From IMG/VR virus record IMGVR_UViG_3300036466_000094, positions 1-20,412 of that record: a stretch of 20,412 nucleotides of DNA, one strand, 5' to 3'. The stretch is from a virus. The position numbers and the translations under genes are program-made. The notes below the pieces were generated by a model. That model was not told the DNA's origin, made no database searches, and was given only the letters and a program-made list of their open reading frames with translations. Below, one piece after another: positions 3,524 to 19,220 of the stretch (within the stretch, counting starts at the first letter, position 1; each line of letters starts with the position of its first letter).

Positions 3524-3555
3524 GATTTTAATTCTCCACTTTAGTGTATGTATTA

Positions 3556-3590
3556 AGGATAGCAAAAAGGCCTGCATGATGCAAGCCTTA
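3556..3590 (-). terminator. Hairpin terminator fused to a putative extended -10 promoter, copy 1
   Basis: On the minus strand a hairpin (AAGGCTTGC, loop ATCAT, GCAGGCCTT; 3567-3589) is followed by a T run, a good intrinsic terminator for the gp41 unit. One stem pair is G-U in minus-strand RNA but would be a C-A mismatch in plus-strand RNA, so the stem is kept for minus-strand transcripts. The same DNA reads as a promoter: TTGCAT (3579-3584), 17 bases, then TGC and TATCCT (3556-3561). A second copy lies at 19185-19220. The terminator is firm; the promoter is inferred. Confidence 0.8.
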
Positions 3591-6095: not shown

Positions 6096-6163
6096 TAGCC
6101 ATGTATTTTATTCCTTTCACTGCGTTCAATCCCTTCGGGAACACGGAATAAAATACATGGCTA
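6096..6163. repeat. 19-bp perfect inverted repeat with 30-base structured loop
   Basis: The left arm TAGCCATGTATTTTATTCC (6096-6114) and the right arm (6145-6163) are perfect complements. The 30-base loop between them is GC-richer and contains an inner hairpin (TCCC, TTC, GGGA). It begins 22 bases past the polymerase stop. No T run follows on the minus strand, so it is not an obvious terminator. It may protect the 3' end of the polymerase mRNA, be an RNA element, or be the trace of a mobile or template-switch event. Confidence 0.85.
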
Positions 6164-6184
6164 TCGCGTTGCGAGTTTACCGGA

Positions 6185-9100
6185 TTACATAAAAAAGGCT
6201 TCCAGTGTGGCAACTTCTTCAGGATTCCACTTTAAGATCTCCATGAATCGCTTTAATGGCGATAAAAAGTTTTTCTCAAATGCAAGGTTGTAGTCAATAT
6301 AATCGTGAAGACCCAATCGCTCATCGAGGAATGAAGGGAATGCCACTTTTGAATATTTAACTGGGTTTGGTTCTTTCAACTCAATAAGTTTAACCTTATC
6401 ACCATCGATAATTTTATCGACTTCATTTTCCAAACCTAACACATCAATTTGGTGATTATACAGAATACCACATCTAGCTTGCCAACTGGCTTCCTGTTTA
6501 TAAATCGTCACCGGATCACTGTTTTTATTGATACCATTACATGATGAGTTTTTAGCAATCACATGTACAGGTAAAGTTTTCCATTCAGCTTTATATTCAG
6601 CAATTTTGGCTTGGAATGCCTTTTCATCTTTGTCAACGATGATTTTATACATTACCTTTAACCAACCGCGCACAATTTCGGGTGTTGTCGACTTGATAGC
6701 ATCTTGTCCCATCACTTTCCAGTATGGATCGCCATCGGCAGATCTTACACCTTCCATATCCCAACACTTGAGAATATAACGCTTTTTAGCTGTCCAGAAT
6801 CCGGCCTGTGCGATTGCTTCACGCGACATATTCATTTTCTGTACTTTGGCATTAGTATACACTTTAAGTTCTTCGTATGCATCATCCATGAACTTTTGCA
6901 GGTACTTATTGCCGAAGTTATCCAAGAAATCCACAATTCGATTTTTAGCTTGTTCATCACCAGCTTCAGCAAGATCATAATCTTCGCGGCGATGTTTTTT
7001 AACAATGCCATCGACATTAATATAATTCGAGTCTGTATCAATTGCGATTACCTGATTTTCGATATATTCGCCGTTTGCATCTTTTGGCGTACCCAATAAA
7101 CGATTTAGGTCATTGGATAGACGCTCTGCAATAAATTGAATTGCAACTTGACCGGACAACGTGATCGCTTCAGCTAATTTAATATTAAAGAATCTGAAAT
7201 AACGGTTACCGATGGCACCATATGCTGAGTTTAACAAAATCTTCTTTGCCATTTGCATACAGTTTAATCGTGCGGCTTCGTTGTCACATTGTTTTGCCAT
7301 TTGTAAGGCTTCAACTCGTGATAGTCCAGATTTGTTTTTAAATAACAACTCTTCTTTCAATTTGCCAATTTTACGCTTATCGGTCATCAATTCTTCACGC
7401 ACAACAAACTCTTGGTTTTCTGCGTAGGTTTTCCACCAAACCGATTCTTGTTCCATTGCCAACATTTGACGTTTGTCGAATTTACGACCTTTATAGTTGA
7501 ATTCCATCAACTCAGAAATAAACGACTGTTTGCGATTGTCGAAACATGCCAAGTTACCAGCCATGCCAATAGGATATTTTTTAAGTGCCGATAAATCTGG
7601 CTCGAATTTGGCAAATCGCATGATATAAGCATCGCGGCCACGTTCGCCATCAATAACTGGATCACCATATTCATCAAAATCATAACCTTCGATATTGTCG
7701 AGCATCATTCGTATTGGATCTGGTAATTTGTGTTCAGGGATCAATGTTTCTGGGCCGATATTCCACTGCATGATTAAGTGTGGATATAGTGAATCCAAAT
7801 CGACTGATAACAACCAACCTTTTTTGCCAAGTTGAGGATCTTTAACAAACGCACCAGCATATCGACGAGGTTTATCTGATAATTTCATCGCCGGAACAAC
7901 TTGTTTTCGAGTATCCATGAGGTAATTCGTTATGATCACATCCCACGTTCGAACGGGTGAATTTGTATCTTCATAGTTGATCTTTGCATAATATGCAACA
8001 GTTAATACAACATCAATAAAGTGCTTTTTACGCTCGATACGCTCGACACACAAAATATCAACCGCGTTGTATTCCACATATTTTTGGAAATCCATTCTGA
8101 ATAGCTTGCGCAAGCTGCCAGCTTCTTCATATGATAGTTTACCGTCTTTAAGTTCAACGTGTGATATGTGGTTGAGTGTATAGGATTCTTGCGCCTTATA
8201 GGTATACTTTTTATAAAGTGCCATGTAATCGAGTTGAGCGACCCCCATGATATCAAACACATCACGCATGTTACCATAATCGTCTTCTTTTTGACGCTTA
8301 TTGACAACCCGCCACGGTGATAATTCTTTGACCGATTCTTCACCCAACACTTTTTCGATTCGGTTGCATAAATACGGAGTATCAAAACCTTCGCTGTTCC
8401 AACCAGTGTATATGTGTGGTGTGTTTTCGGCCCAAAACTTTATAAATTCGCGTAAAGTTTCAGATTCATCTTCACAATCATGGTATATGATATCATCCGG
8501 TGTTAAGTCATGTTGTGGGCCATGTGCTTCGATATTGTCAGCATGTGCTTTAGCATTATATGATTTACATGCAACAATTGGATCCCAATCAAGATTTCCA
8601 AATCCAAAAATATGGTATTTTTTATCGTATGAGTCCAACACACCAACCAAAGTGACAGGCCATTCTGCTAATTCTGGTTTTGGGAATGCATCATCATGAG
8701 TGAATCGGAAATATTTGATCGGCTTCCAACCATCATGAGTTTCAATTTCAACACCATTCATTGTGTTTAATTTTGGCATCATGGCTTGAATTTGTTTTCT
8801 ACCGATAAGTTTTTCGACACCTTTCATTCGAATTTTCATTTCTTGTCGTTCGCCATACATTTGCACGGCCGACTGAACTTCGATATCTAAATTGAATAGT
8901 CGTATTTTTGATTGGTCATATTGGATTTCACCGCTATATTCACGAGCGATAAACTGTGATACAAAATCATCATTTCCGTATACTTGGAACCCATCAACAC
9001 CATCATATTTTGATACAAATTCGGTAGCATCTCGCATGGTTTCGAATTTTACGGGATCGAGCGCTTCGCCAGTAACGGCATGATAATTTGCAGATTTAGG

Positions 9101-9248: not shown

Positions 9249-10136
9249 TTAATATAAAAAATCTTCAAGTGTACCCAAATTGCAAAGAGGAATGTTAGTT
9301 ACAATCACCTCAACGGTTTTATTGCTATCGTCGGAGGTACGGCCGATCCGATAGTTCTTATTCACATATAATACATTATATTTGCTCATCCAGTCAATTA
9401 GAATTTGATTTATTTGACCTTTGTGTTTTGTAACGTTTGATAATATAAATCGACCGCCACTTTCGACACGTTGATCTATCATCGCATACAATAGTCGATC
9501 CGTATCTGCTTCCCAACCATGATTGTAAACTGCTTTGGTGATTAAGTAAGGTGGGTCGATATAATCAAGTGTGTTTTTATCAGCCGGATGTTTGCGCATA
9601 AACTCGATAAATGATTCATTATGTAATTCAACTCTTTCTAATGCATCATGAGTTTGGTGCAACTCATCCATCCACATATCATTAAAATCCCAAGTTCGTT
9701 TACCAAATGGCATATTAAATCCGGTCTTTTTGCTCCATCGGCACGTTGATGAAAATGCATGGCGTGTTAATACGATGTCAAAAATACCAACACTTGGTGG
9801 TACATTTCGAATTGAGTTTATATGATCTTTCGCGCGTAGGTAACCATCTTCATTTTCTTTAGTAAGATGAAACTCTTCGATGGTGTTTTTGACGATGGTG
9901 GCCACGGTAACCGCGCTATAATTTTTAAGATCATAAACCATTTGAAAAACATTATGATCTAATTCATTATATTCTATTTTAGTATGTGGGAATGTATCAG
10001 CAGCATTAATTGCAAAACAACCAGAACCGCCAAAGATATCATTAATTTTTGATATCCCAATTTTTGGAATTAATTTAAAAACGTATGGCAATAGCTCGAA
10101 CTTAGCACCACTGTATGGAATTATATTTTGTATCAT
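9249..10136 (-). CDS. dam: DNA adenine-N6 methyltransferase (Dam-like)
   Basis: This class-alpha adenine methyltransferase transfers a methyl group from S-adenosylmethionine to adenine, in T4 Dam within GATC. Near the N-terminus is PYSGAKFELLP (T4: AYTGNKQSLLP). The SAM-binding loop is FGGSGCFA (35-42), and the catalytic DPPYLIT lies at 194-200, identical to T4 Dam. MPFGKRT (142-148) also matches T4 (TPFGKRT). Length is 295 against 259 in T4. The ATG has GAGGT six bases upstream, and the gene lies 10 bases before the polymerase gene. It probably protects phage DNA from host restriction or marks it; GATC specificity is inferred from similarity. Confidence 0.92.
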   Translation of the reverse strand: MIQNIIPYSGAKFELLPYVFKLIPKIGISKINDIFGGSGCFAINAADTFPHTKIEYNELDHNVFQMVYDLKNYSAVTVATIVKNTIEEFHLTKENEDGYLRAKDHINSIRNVPPSVGIFDIVLTRHAFSSTCRWSKKTGFNMPFGKRTWDFNDMWMDELHQTHDALERVELHNESFIEFMRKHPADKNTLDYIDPPYLITKAVYNHGWEADTDRLLYAMIDQRVESGGRFILSNVTKHKGQINQILIDWMSKYNVLYVNKNYRIGRTSDDSNKTVEVIVTNIPLCNLGTLEDFLY

Positions 10137-10144
10137 TGGTTACC

Positions 10145-10477
10145 TCAATCGAAAAAATCTTCAAATGGATTATCATCTAATAAGTCGGCATAAACTTCGC
10201 CGTGGCAAGCTTTTGGATTATGTTTCGACTTACAATAACATCCCAATGTTTTACCTTTGAGCAAATGCATATTATCTCGAATCCATACAGCTTCGGGATC
10301 CATAGACGAAAAAACCCACTTGCGAAATGAAAGTATACTCTCTTTTCGAGATGATACAATCCATTTTGCTTTTGTGGGTTTCTTTTTATAAGTAAATGGG
10401 TTTCCCCACGGCGTGCCTCTACATATCAGCACGTCATAGGTCGACTCTTTACAATGAACAATTTTAATTTTTGCCAT
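10145..10477 (-). CDS. DUF4326 domain protein
   Basis: The protein shows the DUF4326 pattern: RGTPWGNPF near residues 20-28, a helical middle, then LKGKTLGCYC near 74-83 and a CHGEVYADLL end. The conserved cysteines and histidine suggest a metal or nucleotide-binding fold, but the biochemical role of the family is not established. The last residues (DDNPFEDFFD) are very acidic. Its start overlaps the kinase-like gene by 14 bases, and Dam follows after 8 bases. It sits among nucleotide-handling and DNA-modifying genes, which hints at nucleotide or base chemistry, but this is only context. Confidence 0.85.
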   Translation of the reverse strand: MAKIKIVHCKESTYDVLICRGTPWGNPFTYKKKPTKAKWIVSSRKESILSFRKWVFSSMDPEAVWIRDNMHLLKGKTLGCYCKSKHNPKACHGEVYADLLDDNPFEDFFD

Positions 10478-11108
10478 TAATTTTTATATCGGCACGAGAT
10501 AATAAACCTCTGCCCCAATTAGAACCTAATAAAAAATTATCAACAATGAGCGTAATTTTTTCCAAGAAATCGAGATATTCGGCATCATTATTGGTCTTTG
10601 GCATTTTGTTTTGAATGTCGTACATGGTGCCGACGATACCATCTGGCAAATAGTCGCGACTATCAATATTAAAATTACAACCATCACGATATATTCTAAC
10701 GACTGCAATATTATCAAAACCATGTTTCTCAATCAACGGATAAAGTTCAGAAACAAAACCGCCATCACTAAACACAACAACTGGTGCATCATATTTTGCC
10801 GCAAATTCACCAAAATATTCATCACCGAAAATCGGTTTAATCACTTTTTCTGATGTATGAATCAATGCGCCACGACAAGAAAGTCCATTAAGTTCAGGCC
10901 TTGGAATTTCTTTACCTTCGCGGGTATACCAAGAATCCCAAAGTTCATCGGAAATGCAGTAAATCACCTTTGTTAATTTAAATAGTTGACCTTTAAATTC
11001 GTGATGTTCGGCATGTACATTATGTGCAATCAAATGTGATTTTGATTCTTTTGCTGCAATATCCTTGCCACTATCCGGTGGCCCATTGAAAATAATAACT
11101 TTTGTCAT
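10464..11108 (-). CDS. P-loop nucleotide kinase-like protein (dNMP kinase family?)
   Basis: An N-terminal strand and P-loop, IIFNGPPDSGKD (residues 5-16), have aspartate where the usual serine or threonine follows the lysine, as in several phage nucleotide-kinase-like proteins. The middle strand VVVFSDGGFVSE (about 110-121) and the IAVVRIYRDG segment (about 133-142) resemble the core of deoxynucleoside monophosphate kinases such as T4 gp1, and the length (214) is near that of T4 gp1 (241). Overall similarity is low, so the substrate is not assigned. The ATG at 11108 directly follows the stop of the 55-residue gene, and dUTPase is two genes upstream, which supports a role in nucleotide supply. 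Confidence 0.75.
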   Translation of the reverse strand: MTKVIIFNGPPDSGKDIAAKESKSHLIAHNVHAEHHEFKGQLFKLTKVIYCISDELWDSWYTREGKEIPRPELNGLSCRGALIHTSEKVIKPIFGDEYFGEFAAKYDAPVVVFSDGGFVSELYPLIEKHGFDNIAVVRIYRDGCNFNIDSRDYLPDGIVGTMYDIQNKMPKTNNDAEYLDFLEKITLIVDNFLLGSNWGRGLLSRADIKINGKN

Positions 11109-11276
11109 TTATTCACCTAATAATTTACAATTCATTTTTGGGATATAAACCGGAACTTTAGTATCCGAATGAATAACACAATAGTTGAAAACGTTGGCCG
11201 GAGGATCAAACATCAATCTGTGGACGGTTCCGCGCTTCAATGTGTTATATGGCTTAACGATTTCAACTTCTCTCAT
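11109..11276 (-). CDS. Small hypothetical protein, 55 residues
   Basis: A short frame exactly fills the gap between dUTPase and the kinase-like gene. The ATG at 11276 is one base after the dUTPase stop, with GGAG about 9-12 bases upstream, and its TAA (11109-11111) touches the next ATG at 11108. The sequence starts MREVEIVKPYNTLKRGTVHR and ends KMNCKLLGE. It looks like a compact beta-rich fold with two cysteines and no membrane segment. No family is recognised. The exact fit with both neighbours is strong evidence that it is real. Confidence 0.75.
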   Translation of the reverse strand: MREVEIVKPYNTLKRGTVHRLMFDPPANVFNYCVIHSDTKVPVYIPKMNCKLLGE

Positions 11277-11277
11277 G

Positions 11278-11829
11278 CTATTTTACTCCTGTGTGGCCTA
11301 GGCCACCATTGCGGCTAGTTCGTTGATCTGGCGCTGTGTCAATTACGTCAAACCCAACTTTAAGGTCTTTAACTACTTCACCTTGACATAAACGGTCACC
11401 ATGACTAAACACAAAACTTTTTTCGCTGTTATTGACGATCATCAATTGGGTTTGATGTACAAAATCCGAATCAATAACGGCTTCGCAATTCTGCAAAACA
11501 ATACCATATTTTAAAGATAAACCAGAACGTGGATGTAATCGGATTGAATAACCTTCTGGGATATCAAAAATCAATCCAGTTGGAACCAATAAACGTTCAT
11601 GTGGTCGAACTACAATTGAATGGCATTCGGTGACTACATCATCAACAAAAGTTTGTCCCAATACAACCGGAACATTGATTTTTTCATTGTTGCTTCGATA
11701 AACAGTTAGGTGATCCACATCTTTGATACATGCGCGCATATCAAAACATGCAGATTCTTCGCTACCATAATCCGGAACTTTTGCAAATGGCGACGCAAGA
11801 AATACACCAACTCGAATACTATTATTCAT
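11278..11829 (-). CDS. dut: dUTPase (trimeric dUTP diphosphatase)
   Basis: It hydrolyses dUTP to dUMP and pyrophosphate, keeping uracil out of DNA and supplying dUMP for dTTP. All five motifs of the trimeric family are present: ACFDMRA (27-33), PRSGLSLKYG (100-109), CEAVIDSDF (115-123, with the catalytic aspartate), GDRLCQ (144-149) and RNGGLGHTG (173-181). In the last motif the usual GGFG phenylalanine, which stacks over the uracil, is leucine. An extra segment at about 40-70 makes it longer (183) than typical enzymes of about 150. The ribosome binding site TAGGAAA overlaps the end of regA. T4 itself uses the unrelated gp56, so this gene is an accessory in the block. Confidence 0.93.
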   Translation of the reverse strand: MNNSIRVGVFLASPFAKVPDYGSEESACFDMRACIKDVDHLTVYRSNNEKINVPVVLGQTFVDDVVTECHSIVVRPHERLLVPTGLIFDIPEGYSIRLHPRSGLSLKYGIVLQNCEAVIDSDFVHQTQLMIVNNSEKSFVFSHGDRLCQGEVVKDLKVGFDVIDTAPDQRTSRNGGLGHTGVK

Positions 11830-13728: not shown

Positions 13729-14421
13729 CTAAAACTTTGAGCTTTTTTCCGTTGCGATATAATAAGTTAGTGATTGTACATCATCACTATCTTGTGAAAC
13801 CCATTGCGTAATTGCTGGATGGATTGTAACAGTATAAACGCCTTTTAGCAAATTAACGTTTGTGATTAAAAAGTGTGCTTCGAAATCGTTACCATCATGC
13901 GAATCTGTCAACAATAACTTGAAATTATTCGAGTCACTATCATCAAGGTTTGTCGCTTCAAGGTAAATGTTATTACCATCGGCACGCATAATCACATCAT
14001 TCAAACCAAGAGTATTTGCAGCTTTCATGATTTGGTCAATAGAATCTGTACTGATATCAAGAGTCGCAACACCAACTGGCATATTGATTGTTTTCTTTGG
14101 TGTAGTTGTGATCAACGATGGTTCAGAATAACGATATTTTAATTTGCTGGATACACCAGTGCCACTAACAATAACCATTTTTGCTTGGAAATCGAAGGTA
14201 GGATCTTTGTAAAGGTTAGCACAACGTAGGAATTCGGCAACATTATAAATTGCAACATTGTTTGGCAAATCTTCTTCAATTGTTGCAACACCGATTACGC
14301 TTTTTGTTTCTTTCATAACACGAATCGATTTTGAATGTGCTTCGAGTAATAGACCAGTATTAATATGTGAAAAATTAGAGATGATACTAAGTGTGCGTTT
14401 TGATAACTGAATTGCTGACAT
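13729..14421 (-). CDS. 45: Sliding clamp (T4 gp45-like)
   Basis: The trimeric ring clamp tethers the polymerase to DNA and, in T4, activates late transcription with gp55 and gp33. Length (230) matches T4 gp45 (228), and the pattern is shared: LSKRTLSIISNFSHINTGLLLE at the N-terminus, VAIYNVAEFL (residues 53-62), FLITNVNLLKGVYTV towards the end, and a terminal YYIATEKSSKF. The ATG at 14421 has AAAGGA about 10 bases upstream. It is the first gene of the replication block, following the AAA+ ATPase gene after a leader with two interleaved hairpins at 14463-14496. The T4 late promoter at 2301 fits a phage that uses gp45 in late transcription. Confidence 0.95.
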   Translation of the reverse strand: MSAIQLSKRTLSIISNFSHINTGLLLEAHSKSIRVMKETKSVIGVATIEEDLPNNVAIYNVAEFLRCANLYKDPTFDFQAKMVIVSGTGVSSKLKYRYSEPSLITTTPKKTINMPVGVATLDISTDSIDQIMKAANTLGLNDVIMRADGNNIYLEATNLDDSDSNNFKLLLTDSHDGNDFEAHFLITNVNLLKGVYTVTIHPAITQWVSQDSDDVQSLTYYIATEKSSKF

Positions 14422-14462: not shown

Positions 14463-14496
14463 TTGACTGATATGGCTCAATAAGTCAAGCCATATC
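14463..14496 (-). promoter_or_regulatory. Interleaved inverted repeats in the gp45 leader
   Basis: Two pairings overlap. GATATGGCT (14488-14496) pairs with AGCCATATC (14469-14477), and TTGACT (14483-14488) in the loop of the first pairs with AGTCAA (14463-14468) just after it. The arms interleave like a pseudoknot, but one crossing loop has no bases, so the two stems are more likely alternatives. The element lies about 40 bases before the gp45 start and just after the end of the frameshifted ATPase frame. No T run follows on the minus strand. Confidence 0.6.
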
Positions 14497-14505
14497 GTGT
14501 TTTAT

Positions 14506-14586
14506 TTAAAGTTTATTCATAGCTGCGATGAGTGCATCTTTGGGGGTTTCTCCCCATTCGGTGCCAAGATCCTCATCGCCACTTAC
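14506..14586 (-). CDS. C-terminal extension of the AAA+ ATPase in the -1 frame
   Basis: If ribosomes slip back one base on A-AAA-AAG at 14586-14592, they bypass the TAA at 14583 and add 26 residues, ending at the TAA at 14506-14508. The added tail runs from VSGDEDLGTEWGE to TPKDALIAAMNKL, an acidic stretch followed by a likely amphipathic helix, and has the look of real protein. The frame has no start codon of its own before its last few residues, so it is not an independent gene. A 560-residue product would result alongside the 534-residue one. Confidence 0.65.
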   Translation of the reverse strand, partial: VSGDEDLGTEWGETPKDALIAAMNKL

Positions 14587-14592
14587 TTTTTT
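14525..14592 (-). promoter_or_regulatory. Putative -1 programmed ribosomal frameshift signal
   Basis: The slippery heptamer A-AAA-AAG (14586-14592) is in the correct phase with the ATPase frame and is directly followed by its TAA stop. Six bases after the heptamer begins an 8-bp perfect stem, GCGATGAG (14572-14579) with CTCATCGC (14525-14532). Inside it are further pairings, ATCTTGG with CCAAAGAT (one bulge) and GGGG with CCCC around AGAAA. Heptamer, stop, spacer and hairpin are arranged as in the bacterial dnaX signal. Confidence 0.72.
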
Positions 14593-16187
14593 GCCATTAC
14601 ACCAGCGGCCGCGGCACGCGCATCTCGACTAGATGGTTGACGTGATGCTTTGGCTCGTTCAATTTCGATCTGTTCATCAACGGCTTGATACAATTTGGCA
14701 AATGAAGTTCGAGTCTCTTCGTTGAAACGTTCAACACCGACTTTAATTGCACGTTCCCGCGCACCAAATATAACAAATGCCTTTAATATATCAACACCAC
14801 GTCGAGTCGAGATAACATCATTTGTAGCACCAGATTCATGGCTCTGTCTGACAATATCACACCATTTAACCATACGCGAACAGAATTCACTATCGCTACT
14901 ACTTAGCTCGTTGCCGCCATCATACACAAATCTAAAATGTGCTAATGCAGTCTCGAAAATCTTAAGTTCGACTTTTGGTGATGGGTATGGATTGTGAAGC
15001 ATAATTGGGAATCGATCTAAAAATGCTTCGTTTAATATTTTTGTTCCGGCAAACTTGCCAACTGTATCACCTTGACCCTTTGTATTAGCGGTTGCGAATA
15101 CAGTGAACCCATTAACAGGTTTGACAACTTCACCAGTCTTTTTAATCAATACGGGTTTACCGGATAATACAGATTGTAAACATGACAATTTTGATGATCC
15201 ATAATCGATTTCATCTAACAGTAATGGACAACCGCGGCGCATTGCAATAACAACTGGGCCATCTTGCCAAACTGTATTCCCATTCACCAATCGGTAACCA
15301 CCTAACAAATCATCTTCGTCGGTTTCTTCGGTGATATTGACAATTAACAATTCTTTATTGAGTTCGGCACATGCCTGTTCAATACCTAATGTTTTACCGT
15401 TGCCAGATAGTCCGGTAATGTATGCTGGATAGAACATATTTCGTTCTAAAATCTTGACAATATCGGCATAAATCCCCCAACGGATGAACAATTTATCAAT
15501 ATCCGGAATATAAAAACCTTTTGGTTTTGGTGGGACATTGTGAACATCTTCTTTAGTGTTGAACACTTTTCCAAATGCACTTGCTAACTTTTCAATTGTA
15601 TCATCATCAATGCCACCAAAACTTAATGGCGATGAATCTGGCAATGGTTGGTGTGAATATGGTGATACCATCGTATTATCTAATAATTGGCTTTTAGTGT
15701 TACTAAAATCCGGAAATTCATCATCAAGATCGACGGTATTTGCTGGTTTTCCACTTGAAGTTTCAAAATCCATAAGTTCCTCTTTTGGTTCTGGTGCACC
15801 AAGTGGACACCACGGAGTATAATCGTCAGAAAAATCGTGTAAATTTTCACCAATTCTTCGTTCATGAACGGCCCAACGTGGGATATTGTGGCCATGTATA
15901 AGTTTTAGATCTTTGAGTTGTTGCGATGTGATAATAAGACTTTCATGATGTAATAGTATCTTATCACGTACAAACCCAAGTTCAAGTTCAGAATAACTTT
16001 TGTGTCTTTCATAATCCAATTCGGTGCCAATATAATATTCACCAGAACCGATAATACAAAATCCGTAAACCCAAGCTGGCACCTTAAATTCAGTTACCGA
16101 TTTCAATTCATCATACGAAATCAATTCTTTACCAAAATGCTCAATTAGCATGTTGGTTATTTTTGTATACTCTGGTGATATAATCAT
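14583..16187 (-). CDS. MoxR/CobS-like AAA+ ATPase
   Basis: The C-terminal half is an AAA+ module of the MoxR/CobS type: Walker A GLSGNGKT (259-266), Walker B PLLLDEID (321-328), sensor 1 ATANT (365-369) and arginine finger LDRF (390-393). The N-terminal 230 residues are unrecognised, with an acidic, proline- and serine-rich linker at about 140-190. Such ATPases act as hexamers with a von Willebrand A partner to insert metals or remodel proteins, and the VWA partner is two genes upstream. T4-like marine phages often carry a gene called cobS, but a role in cobalamin synthesis is not shown. The ATG at 16187 overlaps the previous stop by one base (TAATG). The gene ends in the frameshift signal at 14525-14592. 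Confidence 0.9.
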   Translation of the reverse strand: MIISPEYTKITNMLIEHFGKELISYDELKSVTEFKVPAWVYGFCIIGSGEYYIGTELDYERHKSYSELELGFVRDKILLHHESLIITSQQLKDLKLIHGHNIPRWAVHERRIGENLHDFSDDYTPWCPLGAPEPKEELMDFETSSGKPANTVDLDDEFPDFSNTKSQLLDNTMVSPYSHQPLPDSSPLSFGGIDDDTIEKLASAFGKVFNTKEDVHNVPPKPKGFYIPDIDKLFIRWGIYADIVKILERNMFYPAYITGLSGNGKTLGIEQACAELNKELLIVNITEETDEDDLLGGYRLVNGNTVWQDGPVVIAMRRGCPLLLDEIDYGSSKLSCLQSVLSGKPVLIKKTGEVVKPVNGFTVFATANTKGQGDTVGKFAGTKILNEAFLDRFPIMLHNPYPSPKVELKIFETALAHFRFVYDGGNELSSSDSEFCSRMVKWCDIVRQSHESGATNDVISTRRGVDILKAFVIFGARERAIKVGVERFNEETRTSFAKLYQAVDEQIEIERAKASRQPSSRDARAAAAGVMAKK

Positions 16188-16465
16188 TATGAATACTCTG
16201 TTAATATTGCATCTAAATTTTCAACACAAATATAATTTGCATGTTCGCGTTCATTATCATGGCGACGGCCAATCGCGCGCCATTCTGCTAATTTTGCCTT
16301 GAACATAATAATTCTTCGGCGTAATTCTGGCGAGTCCGACGGATCCAATTTCAAATCGTCGTGGCCATCTAGGTTCAACTCCGGCATAATTCCGGTTTTG
16401 TCAAACTCCTTACTTTGTGCAATTAATGCAGTAAGTAAGGTATCAAAAAATTCATTAAATTCCAT
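16187..16465 (-). CDS. Hypothetical protein, 92 residues, between VWA and AAA+ genes
   Basis: The family is not recognised. The protein is helical and highly charged: a hydrophobic N-terminal helix (EFFDTLLTALIAQ), a central segment rich in aspartate (LDGHDDLKLDPSDSPE), then a basic helix (RRRIIMFKAKLAEWRAIGRRH). Its start overlaps the end of the VWA gene by 11 bases, and its stop shares a base with the ATPase start. It is therefore co-translated with both and may be a third subunit or adaptor of the AAA+/VWA machine. That role is inferred from position only. Confidence 0.82.
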   Translation of the reverse strand: MEFNEFFDTLLTALIAQSKEFDKTGIMPELNLDGHDDLKLDPSDSPELRRRIIMFKAKLAEWRAIGRRHDNEREHANYICVENLDAILTEYS

Positions 16466-19034
16466 CGTTTGTCATCTTCTTTGATATCGTTGTGAGTAGT
16501 GTATCAGCCAAAACTTTTATTTGCAACATCTTTTTCGACTGTTCTATGAATTGAGTTGCAATACTGTTCATTGATTTAGATGAATCTAATGATAGTTCAC
16601 ATTCAACATCTCGGTCTAAACTGAAAATAATACTATCATTTCCAATAACTCCGGTTGCAGTTGTGCAATTTTGCTTTTTCAATAATCCCAAATGAGTATC
16701 GATTTCACTTCTAGGAAGTAACATTTCAATCATCATGTTCAAAAACGCACTGGCACCAATATACAAGGTTATTATCGAAGAATCAACACGATCACGATAT
16801 AAATCTGTAATAATTCGAGATAATACGATTCTAGAAGTATCATTTGGTTTAACAATATAATCATAACTTGAATATTTTTTCCTAGTTAATTCGTCATGTA
16901 TGATGAAATTATCCCGACCTCGATAATCTAACCCAATTTTAGCATCACCAGCCATACCATCGGTCAATAACATGGTACTCATAATCTCAACTGAGTGCGC
17001 TTCCTTCCACTCTTTGATAACTTGTGATGCAATCACCAATGCTTCGTTAGTTGGTGTACCCTCGAAGCGCTCACACGGCGTGATGCCATATCTAGCACCA
17101 CTATTATGTGACATCGCTTCACGATATAAATTCCGCATGATTTGGCGTTGGGTTAACATCGGCAAGTCTGAATTTATAATTTCACGTAGAACAACACGAT
17201 CAACGGATAAACTTGTCAACGAACTATCATTTTTATATTTGCCAATTTTCAATGGTATTTCAATGTTTTTAACACTGCGGTAATTATAAACCGATTGGTT
17301 TGTAAACCCATAAACAACATATGGAATATTGACCGACTGGCAAAACATGATCATGATTAATGTTTGTCTCCACGTTTGATACATTCTACTACCGGACATT
17401 GAGCCGGAAAAATCCAATAATAATGCAATTCCGTGATTTTTGCCATCTTCTACCATTGAACATGATTTGAAAATGTCTTCACTTATGCTATAAAATGCCA
17501 ATTTCTTGAGGTCTAACCTTCCAGTTTTTGCGGTACGCACCCGCCGAGACTCCGCGGCATTCTTGCGTAAATCAAACATCTGTTTCATTATTTCAATGGT
17601 TTTGGCCTCATTCTTTTGGAACTTGATCCATTGATTATTAATAGTTTTTATGGTTCGTGGTTCATCTCTTATTATTGATGCATTCCATGAAGTGTGCACA
17701 ACTTTGGCCGGATCCACGAAATCCTTTGGATTTAGTAGATTTCGAACTGCCAAATTTTTGATATCTTTCGCGTCCAAATCAACTTCATTATCCGCGATTG
17801 CATTTGCAAAGTTGGATATAGATTGAATTACGTTGGGTTGGTCTTGATTTGATGATTCATTACCACCATTTTCGATTAAGCTCCCGTCGAGAGTATCGGA
17901 TACTTCATCGCTGGAATCAGAATCCCCCGCATTACTTCCAGATCCATCGTCGCCTGATCCATCTTCGGATCCATCTTCGGTATCGTCATCAGATCCAGAT
18001 TCATCAGTGGCGTCGTTGGCATCCTCGGCATCGTCACCATCTTGGTCGGCATCTTCGTCGGAGTAGTCGGCATCATCATCGTCATCATCTTGGTCTGATC
18101 CGATCTCATTGCTTTTTTGATGATCTGGTGAATCTTCGTCTTGTTCATCATCGATTTCGGATCCATCTGTACCCGAGTTTTCAGAAACGTCGTCGTCGTC
18201 GCTGTGTTCATCTTCCAATCCATCTTCGGAATTATCAGATCCACATGATTCATCTTCGGCTTCATCATCTTCGGATTCGTCTTCGTCGGAAGTGTCACCG
18301 GAACTATCATCGGCTTCATCGAGTTCATCAGTCTCTGAATCATCGCCGTCGTCGCTTGGCTGTCCGGCGTCGTCGTCATCACAATCATCGGTGGATTCTT
18401 CCGGTTCATCGTTGGGTTTAGATTCATTTTGTTGTTCCTCATCTTTCTTGCGTTGTTCCTCATCTTTCTTGCGTTGTTCCTCTTGCAAGTATTCGATGAT
18501 ATCACGAGCCAATACACACGCATCTTTAAACGATTCAACTTTATTCAAATCATTTTTAAATGTGGTTTCAATTGGTGACATTGGAATGTCGATCCACGGT
18601 AATTTTGCCGAAATATTAAGTTTATCAACAAGATTGATATTTCCTAGATCTTTGCCACGTAGACCAAAATAATCACGATCCCAAAACTCTAGATACATTC
18701 GAGATAATGTACTTACTAAACCGGGGTATTCTATTTTTAGGAATTTGGCGGTACGTGCTTGTTCAACCATTTGGATGATTTGGCCATAACCTTCATGCAT
18801 ACCTTCTAATTTAGATTTTATTGATAGGAATTTTACTGGTGGTGTCCATAATGCGTGCGCAACTTCACTGGCCATCATTCCATCGAAAATATCACCTTCC
18901 ATCTCTTTGTAAACTGGTAGGCTTAATATTCTTTTATTCAAATCAAAATGTGCAGCAGTTATGCCACCTTCATGGATAATAGTAATGTCTTCTTTAGCTA
19001 ATAATTTAGCAAGAATACTAGTTGTTGCTGTCAT
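16455..19034 (-). CDS. CobT-like protein: degenerate peptidase-like N-terminus, acidic linker, VWA domain
   Basis: Three parts can be seen. Residues 1-180 contain SEVAHALWTPP (56-66) and MVEQARTAKFLKIEYPGL (89-106). These resemble the HExxH helix and the third-ligand helix of metallopeptidase-like domains in phage VWA proteins, but the first zinc histidine is serine here. Residues about 200-385 are an extremely acidic D/E/S-rich linker. The C-terminal VWA domain has an intact metal site, DFSGS at 541-545 with LLTDGMAG later. CobT of aerobic cobaltochelatase likewise has an acidic linker before a VWA domain, and such proteins work with an AAA+ partner, here at 14583-16187. GAGG precedes the ATG at 19034, which overlaps the upstream gene. 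The target of this machine is unknown. Confidence 0.85.
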   Translation of the reverse strand: MTATTSILAKLLAKEDITIIHEGGITAAHFDLNKRILSLPVYKEMEGDIFDGMMASEVAHALWTPPVKFLSIKSKLEGMHEGYGQIIQMVEQARTAKFLKIEYPGLVSTLSRMYLEFWDRDYFGLRGKDLGNINLVDKLNISAKLPWIDIPMSPIETTFKNDLNKVESFKDACVLARDIIEYLQEEQRKKDEEQRKKDEEQQNESKPNDEPEESTDDCDDDDAGQPSDDGDDSETDELDEADDSSGDTSDEDESEDDEAEDESCGSDNSEDGLEDEHSDDDDVSENSGTDGSEIDDEQDEDSPDHQKSNEIGSDQDDDDDDADYSDEDADQDGDDAEDANDATDESGSDDDTEDGSEDGSGDDGSGSNAGDSDSSDEVSDTLDGSLIENGGNESSNQDQPNVIQSISNFANAIADNEVDLDAKDIKNLAVRNLLNPKDFVDPAKVVHTSWNASIIRDEPRTIKTINNQWIKFQKNEAKTIEIMKQMFDLRKNAAESRRVRTAKTGRLDLKKLAFYSISEDIFKSCSMVEDGKNHGIALLLDFSGSMSGSRMYQTWRQTLIMIMFCQSVNIPYVVYGFTNQSVYNYRSVKNIEIPLKIGKYKNDSSLTSLSVDRVVLREIINSDLPMLTQRQIMRNLYREAMSHNSGARYGITPCERFEGTPTNEALVIASQVIKEWKEAHSVEIMSTMLLTDGMAGDAKIGLDYRGRDNFIIHDELTRKKYSSYDYIVKPNDTSRIVLSRIITDLYRDRVDSSIITLYIGASAFLNMMIEMLLPRSEIDTHLGLLKKQNCTTATGVIGNDSIIFSLDRDVECELSLDSSKSMNSIATQFIEQSKKMLQIKVLADTLLTTISKKMTNDGI
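18431..18482. repeat. 21-base tandem repeat in the VWA gene
   Basis: The unit GTTGTTCCTCATCTTTCTTGC occurs at 18431-18451 and 18452-18472, with ten bases of a third copy. It encodes a repeated EEQRKKD heptad just before the acidic linker, extending a charged helix. The two full copies are identical in DNA, pointing to a recent slippage duplication. Confidence 0.9.
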
Positions 19035-19158: not shown

Positions 19159-19184
19159 GACTACCTCCAATAATCTATACATTA

Positions 19185-19220
19185 AAGATAGCAAAAAGGC
19201 TTGCATGATGCAAGCCTTTT
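19185..19220 (-). terminator. Hairpin terminator fused to a putative extended -10 promoter, copy 2
   Basis: AAAGGCTTGC, loop ATCAT, GCAAGCCTTT form a perfect hairpin followed by T runs on both strands, so it can stop transcription of the 55-residue/TM2 unit and perhaps in the other direction. As in copy 1, the minus strand also reads TTGCAT (19208-19213), 17 bases, TGC and TATCTT (19185-19190), a candidate promoter for the AAA+/VWA unit. Identity with copy 1 runs through the hairpin and about 15 bases beyond. Confidence 0.82.

Follow-up and report, generated by a model that had tools for sequence, protein, structure and literature searches.

The locus analyzed here raises the question of whether a phage AAA+ ATPase gene simply ends at its TAA stop codon, or whether some ribosomes slip at an A-rich heptamer abutting that stop and extend the protein in the −1 frame. 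The window, i.e., the whole stretch of DNA under study, was a 20.4-kb virus record from a divergent T4-like phage, with nearly all genes on the minus strand. Among the genes were those for a family B polymerase (best identities to phage polymerases near 36%), a DnaB-type helicase, a gp44-type clamp loader and a gp45-type clamp; a tRNA search of the whole window found none. The ATPase was ∼50% identical to cyanophage CobS over residues 227–510, and had the AAA_5 core together with the invariant family motifs GLSGNGKT, TEETDEDD and ISTRR. Cobaltochelatase CobS inserts cobalt together with CobT and CobN. A VWA-like gene, whose product gave no match in a Pfam search, adjoined the ATPase gene on its upstream side (Table 1).

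Elsewhere in the window, the minus-strand gene array was interrupted by a 526-nt gap (2282–2811) holding a plus-strand ORF (2314–2811, 165 aa) with a hydrophobic segment at its C-terminus. A 48-nt element was present at 3542–3589 and 19171–19218, the two copies being 15.6 kb apart and 88% identical, and held a perfect hairpin with, on the minus strand, a T run behind it, resembling a terminator. Similar C-terminal peptides (...TLEAFFM, ...TLEDFLY and ...PFEDFFD), reminiscent of sliding-clamp-binding tails, occurred on the minus strand at 6185–6200, 9249–9265 and 10145–10160, in the polymerase, a methylase that looked Dam-like and a 110-aa protein. Five contigs (L238, L240, L241, L244, and L245) had one and the same apparent frame change near polymerase query residues 24–33, at the N-terminus of the protein, which may be a genuine overlap of genes or an artefact of the alignment.

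Table 1. Features at the end of the ATPase gene and in its neighborhood, in window coordinates.
Feature	Position	Strand	Basis
CobS/MoxR-like AAA+ ATPase, zero-frame product of 534 aa	14583..16187	−	ORF; Pfam AAA_5, E = 1.1e-18; cyanophage CobS homology
VWA-like partner gene, 859 aa, long acidic linker	16455..19034	−	Homologue of cyanophage 'peptidase' gene
gp45-type sliding clamp, next gene downstream of the ATPase	13729..14421	−	Pfam
Slippery heptamer A_AAA_AAG, in frame, abutting the stop	14586..14592	−	Sequence; heptamer survey
Zero-frame stop TAA, first half of the 6-nt spacer (14580–14585)	14583..14585	−	Sequence
Candidate stimulatory stem-loop, 8-bp outer stem plus inner helices, −24.5 kcal/mol	14525..14579	−	Folding
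−1 frame tail, 26 codons (14586–14509) plus TAA (14508–14506)	14506..14586	−	Open frame; codon score
Perfect 12-bp hairpin, beginning 9 nt beyond the −1 stop	14469..14496	−	Folding

The zero frame of the ATPase gene ended ATG GCA AAA AAG TAA on the minus strand. As the first-pass annotation had read it, the heptamer A_AAA_AAG (14592–14586) was in frame and finished exactly at the TAA. In the −1 frame the sequence read AAA AAA GTA AGT GGC..., translated as VSGDEDLGTEWGETPKDALIAAMNKL, up to the TAA at 14508–14506, and VSGDEDLGTEWGETPK would be the tail peptide of an extended form. The same annotation had counted 26 added residues lacking a start codon of their own, and two products of 534 and 560 residues, and both statements held when the two frames were translated: the predicted lengths were 534 aa in the zero frame and 560 aa with the −1 extension. 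Upstream, the −1 frame was open for 14 codons without ATG, GTG or TTG, and the sole ATG of the tail was 4 codons before its end, leaving the tail with no usable start of its own. An open −1 frame of 26 codons is by itself unremarkable and common by chance. The in-frame A_AAA_AAG was unique to this site among 6,255 codons, about two being predicted by codon shuffling, and AAAAAAG itself was not enriched (8 seen, 9.4 expected). In Escherichia coli, given a stimulator, A_AAA_AAG ranks in the top three heptamers for efficiency (PMC4066793).

Folding supported the earlier description of a perfect 8-bp stem six bases downstream of the heptamer with nested inner stems. The spacer was exactly 6 nt (14585–14580), inside the range of roughly 5–9 nt at which bacterial-type −1 sites have their RNA structure. 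The outer stem paired 14579–14572 with 14532–14525 over 8 bp without mismatch, and beyond it two inner helices followed, set off by small bulges. The minimum free energy of −24.5 kcal/mol corresponded to z = −4.2, and none of 200 shuffles folded equally low. When 30 in-frame X_XXY_YYZ heptamers were compared, the strongest downstream fold was found here (−24.2 kcal/mol, the next being −16.4), and only 0.1% of positions started an anchored stem with 8 bp or more and −20 kcal/mol or lower. Calibration on other gene ends gave a more sober view. Folds of −24.5 kcal/mol or lower followed the stop at 3 of the 25 gene ends in the window, this one included, and at 9 of 173 distinct homologous ATPase ends (∼5%), while hairpins of −14 kcal/mol or lower followed the ATPase stop in 47% of relatives compared with 16% of intragenic controls. 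Because strong folds after stops are fairly common here, the stem alone represents about a 5–10% event; it was dropped as strong stand-alone evidence, its weight being roughly ten- to twentyfold rather than a thousandfold. An Rfam search returned no match reaching curated thresholds, and two sub-threshold snoRNA matches near the stem were dismissed as chance. The 12-bp hairpin beyond the −1 stop is probably a gene-end hairpin, its distance of 9 nt from that stop being the median stop-to-hairpin distance in the ATPase genes of relatives.

The tail itself had the character of coding sequence. Scored with the phage's own codon usage, its log-likelihood was 7.28, the median for real 26-codon gene stretches being 5.8; a score of 7.28 or more was reached by none of 195 out-of-frame, stop-free 26-codon stretches, and the codon signal switched frame around the heptamer. 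Homologues differ from one another past the last conserved motif. Over the last 20 residues the net charge was +4 for the zero-frame end and −1 for the extended end, while 169 distinct homologous tails ranged from −9 to 0, none of them being basic like the zero-frame product. Based on the codon score, the frame switch and the match in charge to the acidic tails of homologues, the 26 codons are probably a real C-terminus, translated after the ATPase now or until recently. The tail may also form a terminal amphipathic helix, as may the ends of several homologues (...DDILSDALKND, ...AVDEAMRNV) whose sequences could not be aligned with it. Length counts against the extension: past the last conserved motif the extended form had 56 residues and the zero-frame form 30, the 95th percentile of homologues being 31, such that the zero-frame length was normal and the extended length atypical of homologous tails. 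A search with the tail alone found nothing in phages. The tail DNA at 14553–14581 was 76% identical over 29 nt to 16016–16044, in the 5′ region of the ATPase gene itself (same-frame peptides SGDEDLGTEWG and SGEYYIGTELD), a similarity which is probably due to chance.

The likely explanation of this arrangement is programmed −1 ribosomal frameshifting where the ATPase gene ends, with 534- and 560-aa forms as products. It is suggested by the unique in-frame A_AAA_AAG at the gene end, the best downstream fold at an appropriate spacing and the coding-like tail, and further by the basic zero-frame end, the hairpin 9 nt past the −1 stop and the absence of any homopolymer of 7 or more. The frameshift proposed by the first-pass annotation is thereby the best-supported reading, although its likeness to dnaX is incomplete and a precedent exists in the superfamily.

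The first-pass annotation had also warned of a miscounted A run. The true gene would then be one 560-codon frame from which an A was lost out of AAAAAAA, whether through a mistake in sequencing or assembly or through a recent mutation in this phage; heptamer and stop would be by-products of the indel. This is the main rival reading: homopolymers are prone to indels, most isolated frame transitions turn out to be errors or indel mutations (PMC3711429), and the 560-aa product would be identical under indel and frameshift. Moreover, at least one related IMG/VR contig (L285) shows frame breaks in two genes, its polymerase and helicase being broken across frames (6100–8170 and 10001–11338), suggesting an error-prone assembly. 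Nevertheless, the window contained 31 six-base homopolymers and none longer, whereas 11.5 runs of at least 7 were expected in its genes and every one of 300 synonymous shuffles produced some; related loci of similar GC content had 7.6 to 11.8 such runs per 20.4 kb. The phage thus seems to avoid homopolymers of 7 or more, and an original A7 at this position would be an exception. General technical shortening of long homopolymers would have broken several genes and inflated the number of six-base runs, and it was ruled out as neither was seen: other genes were intact, the remaining six-base runs left their reading frames unbroken, and such runs in genes were not in excess (28 seen, 27.6 expected). 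Several six-base runs near gene ends were also considered as errors and rejected, at least three of them encoding Phe-rich C-termini; the clamp aligned with homologues up to its end. Frame breaks occurred in none of 206 related ATPase loci, a set biased to intact loci, and a lost A leaves the stem at the right spacing unexplained. On this sequence evidence a seven-A run at the heptamer appears unlikely, and we consider a lost A a rather doubtful account of the locus, with a small but real chance of being correct.

It is less probable still that the gene simply ends at the TAA, with heptamer, stem and open −1 frame arising by coincidence and the stem serving as a gene-end hairpin. Downstream hairpins are indeed frequent at stops, both in this genome and among homologous ATPase genes, an open frame of this length is no surprise, the zero-frame tail of 30 residues is normal for the family and homologues end in a single frame; yet the tail had a codon score that no out-of-frame stretch attained, the basic zero-frame end falls outside the charge range of the family, and the sole in-frame A_AAA_AAG happens to be located at a stop. 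Transcriptional slippage on the A6 run, yielding a mixture of A6 and A7 mRNAs, is very improbable. Some genes use A-rich runs in this way, including Thermus dnaX with nine A residues, but known sites have more than 7 A (PMC3711429) against six here, and the phase of the heptamer, the spacer and the stem are features of ribosomal slippage.

Homologues were of limited help in deciding among these explanations. Closer relatives were sought with the ATPase, its conserved core, an ATPase alignment, the clamp, clamp loader, polymerase and helicase, and the C-terminus plus tail as queries; the nearest matches in viral and genome searches were ∼50% identical over the ATPase or 65% in the core, very near records possibly having been omitted. 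A CobS-like ATPase with a VWA partner is present in hundreds of T4-like cyanophages, and the ATPases of these cyanomyoviruses share the AAA+ core, and most of the loci retrieved have clamp and VWA-like genes close by, while the N-terminal region of the window ATPase is longer than in most of these proteins. The cyanophage genes terminate in one frame, their tails are neutral to acidic and frequently finish in ...PF, and none of them has A_AAA_AAG at the stop; likewise, the heptamer was found near the stop in none of the 173 distinct homologous ATPase ends, and distant homologues finish in one frame without a −1 tail. Since these C-termini could not be aligned with that of the window ATPase, the absence of heptamer and tail there counts little. 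In 61 of 169 distinct homologous tails (L002–L208), an acidic stretch was followed by a final PF, PY, PW or PL, reminiscent of SSB-type acidic tips.

Under the favored frameshift, ribosomes would read GCA AAA AAG and so have two lysyl-tRNAs placed on A_AAA_AAG, 6 nt short of the stem-loop. Some of these ribosomes would slip back by one base onto AAA AAA, read on through GTA AGT GGC... and gain the 26 residues, while ribosomes that do not slip would stop at the adjacent TAA. Alternatively, a lone lysyl-tRNA on AAG may slip while the TAA waits in the A site. Tandem two-tRNA and single-tRNA slippage at −1 sites yield an identical product, and the protein would be the same here. The 560-aa form would end in an acidic tail that may finish in a helix, as in homologues, whereas the 534-aa form would have a basic end and no acidic tail.

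Mechanistically, the proposed event is an ordinary bacterial −1 frameshift, and the gene is a new place for known signals. The "dnaX design" named by the first-pass annotation applies to the A_AAA_AAG heptamer, the short spacer and the downstream stem-loop. E. coli dnaX, however, has an upstream Shine-Dalgarno-like stimulator and its frameshift yields the shorter product, whereas here the shift lengthens the protein and no such stimulator was found upstream of the heptamer (best anti-SD duplex −2.8 kcal/mol), so that efficiency may be below that of dnaX. Phage T7 gene 10 (10A/10B) is similar in that frameshifting late in a phage gene extends the C-terminus of a fraction of the product, but that is a capsid gene with a G_GU type site and a distant stimulator (PMC5009743).

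Another parallel is cellular. Mg-chelatase genes of chlD type have a programmed −1 frameshift at A_AAA_AAR (PMC3711429, PMC5009743, PMC9227772), which joins two long ORFs and, when tested in E. coli, had an efficiency of as much as 63% (PMC3711429, PMC5009743). These genes and the window ATPase have in common the AAA+/VWA chelatase-like superfamily, an A-rich −1 slippery site and a downstream RNA structure; in the phage, the ATPase and VWA genes are separate and the shift merely adds 26 residues. The annotation knew of no described frameshift in this phage module, and none was found for phage CobS/MoxR-like genes in the open-access literature; in the superfamily, frameshifting is described for the cellular Mg-chelatase genes (PMC3711429, PMC5009743).

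Alongside cellular chlD, the window ATPase would be a second case of A-rich −1 frameshifting within the AAA+/VWA chelatase-like superfamily. AAA+ proteins of the CobS/MoxR kind work as ring assemblies next to a VWA partner, and for this reason mixed rings of tailed and untailed subunits would be the likeliest consequence. What the sequence shows is the signals, their departure from chance and a coding-like tail; that ribosomes slip, how often they do so and what this does to the ring we infer. More tentatively, the phage may have evolved a recoding switch in an AAA+ motor whose rings hold a set mix of tailed and tailless subunits, a possibility to which we give somewhat less than even weight. 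If true, the switch would be convergent with the cellular chelatase frameshift, and built differently. CobS-like ATPases and their VWA partners in T4-like cyanophages carry the labels of porphyrin or cobalamin enzymes; we know of no established role for them. A frameshift deciding the presence of the tail would mark the acidic tail as a functional part, and would offer a handle on the role of this module.
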